DNA of 33,873 bases, from NCBI GenBank assembly GCA_903970395.1, contig CAJCIM010000153.1:1-33873 (forward strand), read 5' to 3'. Positions 30,023 to 33,873 of this stretch are shown here, piece by piece. The notes under the pieces are model-generated. The model made no database searches, was not told where the DNA came from, and saw only the letters and a program-made list of their open reading frames with translations. The DNA comes from Acidobacteriaceae bacterium. GTDB lineage: Bacteria > Acidobacteriota > Terriglobia > Terriglobales > Acidobacteriaceae. Both the position numbers and the translations under genes were made by a program. The first letter of the stretch is position 1. The number at the start of each line of letters is the position of its first letter.

Positions 30023-31468
30023 GTGGCCGCCCTCTTCACTCACCACGTCGACTTCACCCCCGCGGACGCCGACGCCTTGCTGCGCGCCATCCCCGCAGCA
30101 CCGGGCGTCTTCTCGCTGCGTGGCGCGCCCGCGGCAGACGGTACTCCAGCCGAGCCCTACATCACGCGCACAGCGGACCTCCGCCGTCGCCTTCGCCGTC
30201 TACTAGCACCACCCGAAGCCCTCGACGACAGCGGCAATCCTGTCCTCTCCAAGCGCCTCAACCTCCGCGACCGCGTCCGCATCATCGAATACACTCGCAC
30301 CGGCTCCGACTTCGAGTCCACGCTGCTGCTCTACCACGCCTCACGCCTCGCCTTCGGCCCTGACCAGGCCCGCAAGCGCCTGCGCCTGCACACGCCCTAC
30401 CTCATACGCGTCACCATGGCCGCGCCGCATCCACGAGCCTATGTCACCAACCGGCTCAGCAAAAAATCTCTGCACGAATCCTTCGGCCCGTTCCCCTCGC
30501 GCGCCGCTGCCGAGCGCTACTGCGACGCCGTCCTGGACCTCTTCAAGCTCCGCCGCTGCTACGAAGACCTCGAACCCTATCCCGATCATCCCGGCTGCGT
30601 CTACGGCGAGATGAACAAGTGCCTCATGCCTTGCAAGGAGGGAAATCCCGCAGCCTGCACGCCAGCCGAGTACACAGCAGAAGCCCAACGCGTTCTCGCC
30701 TTCTTCACCACACGCGGCCAGTCACTCCTCGACAACATCGCCAGCCAGCGCGAAGCCGCCAGCGAAGCCATGGACTTCGAGACCGCGGCCATGCACCACA
30801 AGCAGTGGGAGAAAGTCCGCGCCGCAACGCTTCTCGCCGACGAACTCGTCCGCCCCATCACGGAACTCCGCGCACTCATCCTCCAGACATCAGCACCACC
30901 CGCAGAGGAAACCACACACGACTCCGCAGCCGTCTTCCTCTTCGCCAACGGTCACCTCACAACACCCACCATGCTCTCCACCCTCGGCGTCCGCGCCGTC
31001 CGCGAGCAGACCGCTGTCGGCAGCAGCCTCTTCGCGCAGCCACTCATGCTCGCACCCATTCCGCTCGATGAGTCCAGCAACACGCTTTCCCCTGAAGACC
31101 GTGCGCGCACTGTCATCGAAACCCTCACCGCAAACAACACGCAACCTGCCCCACTCGACGAGTTCTGCGACGCGCTCTCGCTCTTCCGCCGTTGGTACTA
31201 TCGCCCGGAAAAGCAGCGCACCGGCGAAGTCTTCCTGCCAAACGCAGACGGCACATGGCCCATCCGCCGCATCCTCAACGGAGCCGCGCGCATCGTGCTC
31301 GGGCCGCCCGCAGAAGCAGCTCCCGTCGATCGCGAAGCCGCCAAAGCCCTCAAGACCAAGATCATCCACCCGGGCCGTGAAGGCGTCGAACGTGAAGTAC
31401 CCGTTCTCCCCAGGCGCACCCGCTCCAGAAAATCCATCACTCCTACAGACATCCCCACTGACAACTGA
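30023..31468 (+). CDS. Half-length UvrC-like protein, nuclease centres degenerate or missing
   Basis: A homologue of the excinuclease subunit UvrC, 481 residues against about 600 for UvrC. The N-terminal GIY-YIG region is altered: PGVFSLRG replaces PGVY, and PYITRTADLRRRLRRLL replaces the YVGKA-type motif, losing its Gly and Lys. The region matching the fingers and iron-sulfur site is kept: Cys179, Cys192, Cys200 and Cys204, spaced 12-7-3, close to the 11-7-3 of E. coli UvrC. A UVR-like helix pair (EAMDFETAAMHHKQWEKV, about 243-262) follows. The C-terminal RNase H-like nuclease and helix-hairpin-helix domains are absent. It starts with GTG. The role may be structural or regulatory in repair; this is inference. 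Confidence 0.82.
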   Translation: MAALFTHHVDFTPADADALLRAIPAAPGVFSLRGAPAADGTPAEPYITRTADLRRRLRRLLAPPEALDDSGNPVLSKRLNLRDRVRIIEYTRTGSDFESTLLLYHASRLAFGPDQARKRLRLHTPYLIRVTMAAPHPRAYVTNRLSKKSLHESFGPFPSRAAAERYCDAVLDLFKLRRCYEDLEPYPDHPGCVYGEMNKCLMPCKEGNPAACTPAEYTAEAQRVLAFFTTRGQSLLDNIASQREAASEAMDFETAAMHHKQWEKVRAATLLADELVRPITELRALILQTSAPPAEETTHDSAAVFLFANGHLTTPTMLSTLGVRAVREQTAVGSSLFAQPLMLAPIPLDESSNTLSPEDRARTVIETLTANNTQPAPLDEFCDALSLFRRWYYRPEKQRTGEVFLPNADGTWPIRRILNGAARIVLGPPAEAAPVDREAAKALKTKIIHPGREGVEREVPVLPRRTRSRKSITPTDIPTDN

Positions 31469-31504
31469 GAACCGGGTCAAGCCGCGCATCGCACCTTCGA
31501 ACCC

Positions 31505-31510
31505 TATACT
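31505..31510 (+). promoter_or_regulatory. -10-like box before the glycosyltransferase
   Basis: TATACT lies 25 nt before the ATG at 31536, leaving a leader of about 18 nt that holds GGAGA. There is no clear -35. It could give the membrane glycosyltransferase its own promoter. Confidence 0.3.
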
Positions 31511-31535
31511 GGCTCTCGGAGACCGCATCCACGCG

Positions 31536-33236
31536 ATGACCCCCAGCAAGCCCACAACCTCACCCTGGCAACCGGCCGACTCGCTCATTCTCGTTGCGTT
31601 GCTCGCGCTCTCCTCCCTCTGGATCGCCATCAAAATTCATTGGTCCTGGGCACCGATGGAAGACGCAGCCATGCTTCTGCGTTACTCGCAGAACCTCGCC
31701 GCCGGCCACGGCATCCGCTGGAGCCTCAACCAGGCCCCCATCGACGGCGCCACCGACTTCCTCTACATGGTGCTCACCGCCGGGTTCTCGCGTGTTGCGC
31801 ATCTCGATGTCGTCACCGCCAGCCGCTGGGTCAACATCCTCGCGCAGACAGCCACCATCGCTCTGCTCTATCCCGCCGCGCGGCGTCTCGGCGGCAGCCG
31901 CCTGCTCTCGGCGGCAGCAGCGCTCTATCTCATCGCCGGCCCTTTCCTCAACCTCACCGACTCCTGCTTCGGCACCCCGCTCTTCGCTCTCTTTCTCATG
32001 CTCTGCTGGTGCATGGGTCTCCGCTACGCACTGCATCGCTCCAGCTGGCCCACAGCTCTGTTCATGACGCTTCTAGGCCTCATCGCCGGCCTCACACGGC
32101 CCGAAGGCGTGCTCACCGCCGCGTTCATCCTCATCGCCACTCTTTACCTCGCACGCAAAGACCGAGTGCCCCATGTCTCGCTTCTGAGACATGGGTTCAC
32201 AGGATGCCTCCCGCTCATCACCAGCTATATCCTCACCTTCGGCATTCTCGGCGGAGCCTACTTCGCCTGGCACTGGCACTACTTCGGCTACCCGCTGCCC
32301 AACCCCTTCTACGTAAAAGGCAACGGCCACCTCTACCCGCATAGCGTCGAGCACTCCGCAATGAACGTCGTTATGCTCCTGCTGCCCGTGCTTCCGCTCA
32401 TTCCTCTCGGCTGGCTCGCGGACTCCACACGCCGCCTCACCAACGCTCTTCTGCTCGTGCTCATCCCCTTCACGCTGATGTGGGTTCTGCTCGCAAACAC
32501 CAACAACCACTTTTACCGCTTCCAGTACGCCATCGTCCCGCTGGTGCTTGTCACGTCACCGGCCCTCGTTCGCGGTCTTGCGGATGCCCCACAGCCTGCC
32601 CTGAGCCTGTCTCCGCTGCGACGCATCCCCCTTATCCTCGTCACAGGCCTCGCCATCCTTGGAGCCATGTTCTACATCAACCGCCTCACCGTGAACTTGT
32701 ATACCGCCTGGGGCATGCGCATCTTCGCGGAGCGCCTGCAGCCGCTCGCCTCGCGCGGCTACACCATGGCCGTCACCGAAGCCGGAGCGCTCCCGCTTTA
32801 CTCGCAGTGGAACACCATCGACGCCCTTGGCCTCAACGACGCCTACGTCGCACACCATCATCAGCGACTTGATGACGCCTATCTCGACCGCACCCACCCC
32901 GAGCTGATCATGGTGCACGTGGACCGCTCCATGCCCAGCGAGTACCTGCCCGGCGGCCTCGCCGCCCCGCCAGCAGACGACGACCCCCGCTATAACGCCG
33001 AGTTTCTCAACTTCTACGCCAGCACCCACGGCTACACCCTCGCCGCCACCTGGGGAGCCGACCAGTGCAACCTACACCTCTACTGGCTACTCCCCGGCTT
33101 CGCCGACTACGCCACCGTCCTCTCCGCTATCCGCGACCACACCTACAACTTCCTCGACGACGCGTACCTCTCCCACGACTACCGCAACCAGATGGAGTCC
33201 ATCCGCCCCTGCGCCGCCCCCGAAGGCCCACAGTAG
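31536..33236 (+). CDS. GT-C-type membrane glycosyltransferase, substrate unknown
   Basis: A 566-residue integral membrane protein with about ten hydrophobic segments in the first 400 residues and a soluble, likely periplasmic, C-terminal part. The first extracytoplasmic loop has the acidic motif PMEDAAMLLRYSQNLAAGHG followed by APIDGATDFLYM, the layout of GT-C enzymes (ArnT/dolichyl-phosphate mannosyltransferase-like, including AftB-type arabinosyltransferases) that take sugars from lipid-phosphate donors. The tail begins with a YSQWNTIDALGLNDAYVAHH-like segment (given here by QWNTIDALGLND) typical of this group. Donor and acceptor cannot be read. The ATG at 31536 follows GGAGA by 13 nt. The frame is open upstream into the previous gene, but that part has no membrane segment and overlaps another reading frame. 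Confidence 0.82.
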   Translation: MTPSKPTTSPWQPADSLILVALLALSSLWIAIKIHWSWAPMEDAAMLLRYSQNLAAGHGIRWSLNQAPIDGATDFLYMVLTAGFSRVAHLDVVTASRWVNILAQTATIALLYPAARRLGGSRLLSAAAALYLIAGPFLNLTDSCFGTPLFALFLMLCWCMGLRYALHRSSWPTALFMTLLGLIAGLTRPEGVLTAAFILIATLYLARKDRVPHVSLLRHGFTGCLPLITSYILTFGILGGAYFAWHWHYFGYPLPNPFYVKGNGHLYPHSVEHSAMNVVMLLLPVLPLIPLGWLADSTRRLTNALLLVLIPFTLMWVLLANTNNHFYRFQYAIVPLVLVTSPALVRGLADAPQPALSLSPLRRIPLILVTGLAILGAMFYINRLTVNLYTAWGMRIFAERLQPLASRGYTMAVTEAGALPLYSQWNTIDALGLNDAYVAHHHQRLDDAYLDRTHPELIMVHVDRSMPSEYLPGGLAAPPADDDPRYNAEFLNFYASTHGYTLAATWGADQCNLHLYWLLPGFADYATVLSAIRDHTYNFLDDAYLSHDYRNQMESIRPCAAPEGPQ

Positions 33237-33277: not shown

Positions 33278-33314
33278 CTGTCATTCCGCAGCAACGCGAA
33301 GGAATCTGCTTTCT
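33278..33314 (+). repeat. REP-like repeat, left copy
   Basis: A 37-nt element starting CTGTCATTCCGCAGC and ending GGAATCTGCTTTCT. It contains the inverted words ATTCC/GGAAT, so it can fold back. It is 30/37 identical to the reverse complement of 33648-33684. It lies 13 nt beyond the 3' end of the GIY-YIG gene. Confidence 0.75.
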
Positions 33315-33327
33315 TCCCGAATCACCT

Positions 33328-33624
33328 CTAGTTCACCTCAGCAGCAAGATCCTCCCAAGTCGGATTCATCCCTTCAATCAAAGCGATCTTCCTTCCCCGG
33401 TTCCAGTCCTTCAACTCTTTCTCCCGCGCAATCGCGCTATTGATGTATTGAAAGCTCTCAAAATAGAGCAGCCTGGTGATGTTGTACCGTGCCGTAAATG
33501 AGCCAGGCACAAGCTGCCGGTGCTGCAACACCCGCACGCGCAGATCATTCGTAACGCCGATATACAGTGTTCGAGAGCGGCTTGCCAGAATGTAAACGTA
33601 GTAGAAGTGTTCGCGCAGGGGCAT
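33328..33624 (-). CDS. GIY-YIG mini-nuclease
   Basis: A 98-residue single-domain GIY-YIG protein of the small YhbQ/UPF0213-like sort. Motifs in order: the GIY strand as YYVYIL at 8-13, the YIG strand as YIGVTND at 21-27, the conserved Arg in DLRVRVLQH (27-35), the catalytic-type Glu in [11 protein letters not shown], and an Asn-containing end [10 protein letters not shown]. Such proteins are predicted nucleases; cellular roles are largely unknown. The ATG at 33624 is where the domain starts; the frame is open upstream across the right repeat, with an in-frame ATG at 33633 and no Shine-Dalgarno sequence. Inverted REP-like repeats lie 13 nt beyond its end and 23 nt before its start, which suggests a mobile unit. 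Confidence 0.87.
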
Positions 33625-33647
33625 GGTCAGCATTCTAGCCGTCCCCC

Positions 33648-33684
33648 AAAAAGCAGATTCCGACGCTGCGCTACGGAATGACAG
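33648..33684 (-). repeat. REP-like repeat, right copy
   Basis: A 37-nt element that, read on the minus strand, begins CTGTCATTCCGTAGCG and ends GGAATCTGCTTTTT. ATTCCG and CGGAAT form a 6-bp stem. It is in inverted orientation to the left copy and lies 23 nt upstream of the GIY-YIG start. Confidence 0.75.
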
Positions 33685-33733: not shown

Positions 33734-33873
33734 ATGATCGAACTTGCCTTCTCCATCCTCGCCGCCGACTTCGCCCACCTCGCCGACGAGATCGCCATAG
33801 CGACCGCTGGTGGCGGTACCATCGTCCACGTCGACGTCATGGACGGCCACTTCGTCCCCAACATCACCTTCGG
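33734..33873 (+). CDS. rpe: Ribulose-phosphate 3-epimerase, N-terminal part
   Basis: Interconverts ribulose 5-phosphate and xylulose 5-phosphate, linking the oxidative and non-oxidative pentose phosphate branches; a TIM-barrel metalloenzyme. Only the first 46 codons are in the window. Ser7 (in AFSILAADF), His32 and Asp34 (in [16 protein letters not shown]) are substrate and metal ligands at the exact positions expected for the family when the ATG at 33734 is used as start, which supports that choice over the GTG one codon upstream. Together with transketolase at the other end and gnd-zwf-pgl-glk in the middle, it makes this stretch rich in pentose phosphate genes. Confidence 0.93.

Follow-up and report, generated by a model that had tools for sequence, protein, structure and literature searches.

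A GIY-YIG nuclease gene between inverted REP-like repeats: a probable REPtron-like element in an Acidobacteriaceae genome

When a small nuclease gene is tightly bracketed by inverted copies of a repeat, the question arises whether the enzyme acts on the repeats that surround it. One such gene lies in the stretch of DNA analysed here, a contig of 33,873 nucleotides from an Acidobacteriaceae bacterium (the window, Table 1). An earlier note on its letters had proposed, by analogy with the REP sequences that flank RAYT transposases, that the nuclease may mobilise or maintain the repeats, and the comparisons reported here support that idea. We conclude that the 407-bp unit is probably a REPtron-like element, in which a GIY-YIG nuclease gene sits between inverted cognate REPs and whose spread would start from hydrolytic cutting. 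The bracket, the matching of repeat type to gene, the recurrence of both across phyla, the turnover of sites and selection on the gene are all read directly from the sequences.

Table 1. Coordinates of the unit, its neighbours and the second unit of the same genome
Feature	Position	Strand	Remarks
Left neighbour, 722-aa gene	31068..33236	+	"glycosyltransferase" is the earlier note's name; served to locate the empty site
Left REP, CTGTCATTCCGCAGCAACGCGAAGGAATCTGCTTTCT	33278..33314	+	TGTCAT tag outermost, tail facing the gene
GIY-YIG nuclease gene, 98 aa	33328..33624, including stop	-	
Right REP, CTGTCATTCCGTAGCGCAGCGTCGGAATCTGCTTTTT (minus-strand reading)	33648..33684	-	inverted copy of the left REP
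Right neighbour rpe, 5' part	33734..33873	+	name from the earlier note; continues past the contig end
Second GIY-YIG unit (L001 = L146, one gene)	G000:C177:5900-6175		flanked by TGTCATCTCGACCG-type repeats

Repeats and protein of the window unit

The positions of the 98-residue ORF and of both repeats agree with those first given, as do the 30/37 identity of the inverted 37-nt repeats and the gaps of 13 and 23 nt that separate them from the gene. Apart from the pair that flanks the GIY-YIG gene, the window has no two inverted 37-mers lying up to 1 kb apart that agree at 30/37 positions or more; three block-shuffled windows contain no such pair at all, and a chance origin of the bracket is rejected.

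The repeats look like TGTC variants of the CGTC-tagged REPs, which PMC3733652 defines by an unpaired CGTC or TGTC tag, a stem of 8-9 bp starting from AT, a loop of 4-5 nt and a tail that is mostly CCA. Tag and AT start match this definition; stem length, loop and tail differ, the window copies having a 6-bp outer stem, a long interior and the tail CTG instead of CCA. Each repeat had also been described as a fold-back. This stands for several relatives, whose repeats fold strongly, but not for the window's own copies, which are weak as single-stranded DNA: the right REP folds at -4.9 kcal/mol (z -1.4), and the left one (z +0.7) is degenerate. Several relatives' repeats also share with CGTC-tagged REPs the unpaired CGTC/TGTC tag, the AT stem start, a short loop and a short tail, and those of Neisseria and Flavobacteria type fit the definition. 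According to PMC3733652, CGTC-tagged REPs are chiefly alphaproteobacterial and occur also in Neisseriae and others, with dRS3 as a member and TGTC variants noted.

The encoded protein is a compact GIY-YIG domain (structure model mean pLDDT 88.9), with no second domain in its 98 residues. It belongs to the GIY-YIG superfamily by its match to PF01541 (46.5 bits; cut-off 22.6); among Pfam profiles GIY-YIG alone scores above its cut-off, and no Y1 domain is matched. Residues Y11, Y21, G23, R31 and E68 are invariant in 139/139 relatives and H35 and N87 are kept in 138/139; we take all of these to be catalytic positions of the GIY-YIG fold. The best solved-structure match of the modelled fold is 1zg2, UPF0213 protein BH0048 (E 3e-4), with Slx1 next, and phmmer aligns the protein with 1zg2 over residues 8-86 (E 0.0039). 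Its closest homologue, encoded at locus L127 in genome G159, is identical at 78/95 residues in one comparison and 81% identical in another. Because dN between the two genes is 0.14 against a dS of 2.6, which is saturated, the window gene appears to be under strong purifying selection; selection of this kind could also reflect a host function of the nuclease.

Several named families were tried and rejected. The protein has no match among PADLOC defence families, where 5/31 relatives match UzuA weakly (best E 2e-4), and none among NCBIfam families at E <=0.01 or above cut-off. Its score with TIGR01453, the profile for group I intron homing endonucleases, is 12.1 bits, far below the cut-off of 56.05, and 11/31 family members match that profile at E <=0.01 (best 1.2e-6). 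With the GIY-YIG homing endonucleases of group I introns the protein shares its catalytic domain and, as proposed below, a homing-like spread; it differs from them in being a single domain whose gene is flanked by its own repeats. E. coli YhbQ/UPF0213 likewise represents small stand-alone GIY-YIG proteins, but the window protein is not YhbQ: the two align only locally, over 29 residues, yhbQ overlaps yhbS, and no tag occurs in the flanks of the YhbQ gene that were searched.

Recurrence of the bracket and matching of repeats to genes

To judge how general the bracket is, we took, out of 503 relatives found in the genome_contigs collection, the loci of the best 80, which by record title come from Acidobacteria, Bacteroidetes, Chloroflexi, Alphaproteobacteria, Planctomycetes, Verrucomicrobia, Patescibacteria and others. 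Each gene was scored by the local match between its upstream flank and the reverse complement of its downstream flank, with a threshold of 14. The expected enrichment of repeat pairs at GIY-YIG genes was found: 58/80 genes (best 80 of 503) reach the threshold and 22/80 fall below it, whereas 9/377 of the other ORFs at these loci reach it; a slightly different choice of flanks gives 55/80. Scores of at least 20 are found for 35/80 of these best 80 of 503 and for 3/377 other ORFs, and among other short ORFs in the same loci 1/79 scores at least 14 and 0/79 at least 20. Within the same best 80 of 503, direct matching repeats flank 28/80 genes (other ORFs, 18/377), matching repeats in either orientation 64/80 (24/377) and, by a looser test, a tag present in both flanks 65/80 (63/377). 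An inward YGTCRT tag lies within 150 nt on both sides in 56/80 entries (L001, the window gene and the 78 scan loci with full flanks from the best 80 of 503); of 6058 random places 2.7% show this arrangement. Since random places fall mostly in coding DNA, the other-ORF control is the fairer one.

The other-ORF controls (inverted and either orientation) reject general intergenic clustering, and they bear on the reading that gene and repeats merely hitch-hike into insertion-tolerant intergenic sites, with the repeats acting as terminators or being hot spots and the bracket as a by-product. Tags are indeed frequent near other ORFs, as the looser test shows, the 7 other exact copies of the window repeat in this genome are solitary, and in G153 the site corresponding to L127 carries a REP of another type. 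Matching inverted repeats are nevertheless rare at other ORFs, short ones included, and repeat types are matched to genes; we consider hitch-hiking highly improbable.

Loci of the window's genus and family, window included, give a similar picture, with 42/59 scoring at least 14 (genus, 30 of 39 listed matches, those that had loci; family, 29 further loci of many matches). Over all 139 loci, 100 have inverted repeats, 50 direct, 36 both, 14 direct only and 25 neither. The members of this set are not independent, for Bradyrhizobium and Winogradskyella each appear more than once, L016 is apparently the same place as L094, the window gene itself is included as L093, and L001 and L146 stand for a single gene. 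The layout, as read from these loci, is thus mostly inverted and sometimes direct (direct only at L013, L022, L023, L035, L062, L071, L104, L114, L138, L139, L144, L147, L153 and L154), and units with direct repeats could be lost through simple recombination, one repeat remaining. In Rhizobium and Shinella, three copies have arms of ~140-200 nt, each arm built as REP-spacer-REP, and of the 10 plasmid-collection genes read, one, from Rhizobium tumorigenes (L159), lacks a bracket. Low-complexity TTGCTTTTGC-like arrays lie beside the REPs, partly within inverted arms, at L130, L131, L133 and L135 (G151, G152, G168 and G157).

If the brackets reflect a partnership, repeat type and gene should belong together. 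Own flank pairs score a median of 17.25, against 8.5 for mixed pairs (80 entries), and a gene's own right flank is the best of all in 25/80 rows. Repeats were labelled by the six bases that follow the tag, which gave labels to 69/139 loci, 61 of them with a label common to at least three. On the protein tree, whose resolution is poor (94 columns; 135 branches, 8 of them starred), the 61 loci require 22 label changes, whereas 500 shuffles average 40.6 and never fall below 35. For the 14 labelled loci of the window's genus the figure is 4 changes against a shuffled mean of 7.3, with 4 or fewer in 1/1000 shuffles. Because paralogues within one genome have different repeats, repeat type, at least on this evidence, tracks the gene more than the genome.

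This genome provides such a case. It holds three GIY-YIG matches, one of which was identified by eye as UvrC, and both of the others are flanked by inverted REP-like repeats, each from a separate family: the window family has the consensus TGTCATTCCG(C/T)AGCGnnGCGnnGGAATC, and that of the second unit on contig C177 reads TGTCATCTCGACCG...GTGGAGAGA. Elsewhere, both repeats of the G154 cassette show an altered tag, TTTCCATTCCG, which recurs in 2 of the 3 other copies listed for that genome. The closest homologue outside the genus in a 150-genome family sample, that of G130 (65%), is accompanied by repeats of the window's subfamily, and G130 holds 98 matches to the broader repeat pattern. Of four homologues at 65-69% (best 80 of 503), L016, apparently the same place as L094 in G130, goes with the window's subfamily; the repeats of L014 and L015 are of other types, and those of L013 are direct only. 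The 81% homologue L127 has a REP on a single side only.

A Y1/RAYT or other transposase might instead move the repeats, with the GIY-YIG gene as cargo between two REPs. Y1 genes are certainly at hand, in 26/28 genus genomes and with 5 matches in this genome, and 20/30 Y1 loci are themselves bracketed, but by unrelated palindromes; a tag-like six-mer in 3 aligned segments is a chance occurrence inside those unrelated repeats. Since the Y1 brackets differ in sequence, Y1 enzymes are disfavoured, and we reject them, as partners of the tagged repeats. Two further points count against them: repeat type tracks the GIY-YIG protein tree, and PMC3733652 reports, for species bearing CGTC units, no RAYT/IS200 transposase gene flanked by such units. 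We therefore regard transposase-driven movement of the unit as very unlikely. Judged from their brackets, two nuclease-and-palindrome systems thus run side by side in these genomes, and the Y1 loci, as a control of known kind, illustrate the look of a bracket. Their genes (L194-L201, L205, L207, L217-L220 and others) lie in long inverted palindromes such as CCCAGGGTGAAACCCTGGGT and are REPtron/TIRtron-like.

Dispersal of the repeats and turnover of the unit

The claim that the repeat is dispersed through the genome was confirmed: the exact pattern has 9 matches (reversed-pattern control, 0) and a tighter pattern with up to 2 mismatches finds 14 copies. The sole pair of exact copies is that at the gene, the other 7 being solitary within 3-kb loci. 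The family of the second unit gives 20 pattern matches in the genome, and its reversed-pattern control gives none. The check for solitary copies took listed copies, 57 of 57 in G153 and 26 of 98 in G130.

Copy number and gene presence are associated across 150 family genomes, where the median pattern count is 3 with a homologue (n=94) and 0 without (n=56; p = 4e-4); 14/56 genomes without a homologue still carry at least 3 copies. Within the genus, the five genomes with a gene of the window's type, a type assigned by eye, have 5-54 copies; among the other 23, 12 have none and four have high counts (G153, 57; G161, 43; G173, 17; G172, 12), and a rank test of 5 against 23 genomes gives p = 0.006. 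No matching GIY-YIG gene was detected in these four genomes despite their window-type REPs, the assemblies of G161 and G173 being less than 90% complete. For G153 and G161 the copies may reflect a lost gene, the action of a paralogue or an incomplete assembly. Given such counts in genomes without a matching gene, the repeats would seem able to outlive or outrun it.

The unit itself comes and goes. Had the gene been fixed at its locus, it should also lie between the glycosyltransferase and rpe genes of relatives, yet in G159 (left neighbour 77% identical; rpe 91% over 46 aa) neither a gene nor a tag stands between them. Conversely, the L127 site of G159 is empty in the window's genome, with flanks 84-89% identical, so that the two genomes have reciprocal empty sites; in G153 the L127 site has no gene. 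Among 31 loci compared (30 of the genus, plus L094), both flanks are shared by the pairs L130/L131 and L146/L154, and two further pairs share one flank. The second unit of this genome has its site in common with G159 (L154), where the downstream repeat is direct.

Two cases come from the close pair G151/G152. Opposite unit L143, G152 has one 40-nt REP; at the full L143 site that REP stands direct on both outer sides, together with an inverted one. Opposite unit L150, G151 has the same outer REPs around a short gene-less spacer (L170 12100-12230), an inverted pair that resembles a REPIN. Further afield, 11 Sphingobium megaplasmid records span both flanks of one unit, which by coverage is present in 7/11. 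In TYG64 and TYG74 a single symmetric two-tag palindrome, composed of the outer halves of both REPs, replaces it, and the remaining two of the 11 records have no such REP. In Azospirillum lipoferum 4B a unit lies between sufB and sufC and is absent from three relatives read; three Shinella relatives read lack the unit and show no scar.

These cases are, as sequences, instances of turnover, some with junctions within repeats and several with empty sites free of any scar, and are compatible with both gain and loss. The Sphingobium composite palindrome and the direct outer REPs of L143 fit recombination within REPs. Plain homologous recombination could produce the same structures without an enzyme, above all where repeats are direct.

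Possible route of spread and known systems

The RAYT parallel drawn earlier holds in anatomy, in co-variation of gene and repeat, in one gene-less REP pair and in presence and absence of the unit. The arrangement that characterizes REPtrons, a gene between inverted cognate REPs, is found in the window and in 58/80 relatives (best 80 of 503), and dispersed REPs are a further feature shared with REPtron/RAYT-REP (REPIN) systems. The differences lie in an enzyme that is GIY-YIG and not Y1/HUH, in YGTC rather than GTAG repeats and in covalent chemistry being unexpected. Because only GIY-YIG passes the Pfam cut-off, the window unit is no RAYT element, though alike in anatomy. A strict RAYT picture, with cutting and strand transfer via a covalent single-strand intermediate, would draw on that anatomy and on the REPIN-like pair, but it seems to us scarcely credible for a protein whose fold and conserved residues place it among the GIY-YIG nucleases, a hydrolytic class, and which matches no Y1 domain. 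For comparison, TnpAREP processes single-stranded REP and co-evolves with REP, according to PMC8266576.

GIY-YIG enzymes hydrolyse DNA, whereas HUH/Y1 RAYTs hold a covalent intermediate; no such intermediate is known from GIY-YIG enzymes. For these reasons a break-and-repair route, akin to homing, is likelier for the REPtron-like unit than direct strand transfer. The protein would recognise the tagged hairpin (YGTC, stem-loop and short tail), probably met as single-stranded DNA at replication forks or in DNA uptake, and would cleave it. With a second REP copy or an entire unit as template, repair would then spread solitary REPs, gene-less pairs and, occasionally, the gene. Near-palindromic targets would allow either REP half to serve as homology.

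Comparison with the Ssn nucleases suggests a different role. Ssn, reported by Chenal et al. in Nat Commun in 2025, is said to be a small GIY-YIG enzyme from Neisseria and related bacteria that acts on single strands at specific sites and cuts a repeated sequence, NTS; its homologues reportedly cut their own corresponding sequences, and the emphasis is said to lie on transformation and on tools. The N. gonorrhoeae homologue of the window protein, 46/88 identical and encoded amid CGTCATTCCCGCGCAGGCGGGAATC repeats, is presumably Ssn. Two of the N. gonorrhoeae records, NZ_CP119142.1 and NZ_CP119140.1 (~2.17 Mb), are evidently chromosomes, although they are catalogued as plasmids.

Accordingly, the window enzyme might serve genome dynamics of its host in the manner of Ssn, cutting repeat-bearing single-stranded DNA, for example in natural transformation, with target repeats kept around the gene by selection or for regulation and any spread incidental. 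The dRS3-like CGTC repeats around the gonococcal homologue and the low dN/dS of the window gene speak for this. By itself, however, it would leave unexplained the brackets matched gene by gene, the presence of several genes of different type in one genome and the turnover of sites, and we consider it unlikely. Set beside the Ssn work, the present analysis measures brackets matched to their genes, sites that hold a lone REP or a gene-less pair, and the co-variation of gene and REP type. Since the protein probably belongs with Ssn in one family, the enzyme as such is not new; the anatomy of the element and its partnership with CGTC-type REPs are, as far as we have checked, undescribed.

A broader proposal is that GIY-YIG nucleases are, in many phyla, dedicated partners of CGTC/TGTC-tagged REPs and form autonomous REPtrons, a second kind of REP element beside Y1/RAYT; we put this at an even chance. 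Such REPtrons would spread themselves, solitary REPs and gene-less pairs through cutting of the REP hairpin and copying in repair. In the 2013 survey (PMC3733652), CGTC-tagged REPs "apparently lack a dedicated transposase" and their REPtrons are supposed to have perhaps vanished early; its main text does not contain 'GIY', and the survey found no partner gene for them. The main text of the RepRanger paper (PMC12306157) contains none of 'GIY', 'nuclease' and 'RAYT', and listings from the open-licence literature showed nothing that connects GIY-YIG genes with REPs.

If the proposal is correct, REP biology would include a second enzyme class, hydrolytic instead of Y1. Pairing across phyla would assign to every repeat family its enzyme, together with the probable target, which makes the question of what spreads CGTC-tagged REPs testable, and reading the flanks would offer a simple rule to predict the targets of small GIY-YIG nucleases of this family. 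One further gene of this kind, on plasmid p1 of Planktothrix agardhii (L161), is surrounded by TGTCATTCTGAG repeats and has an MmeI-like restriction-modification gene on one side and DISARM drmA on the other.
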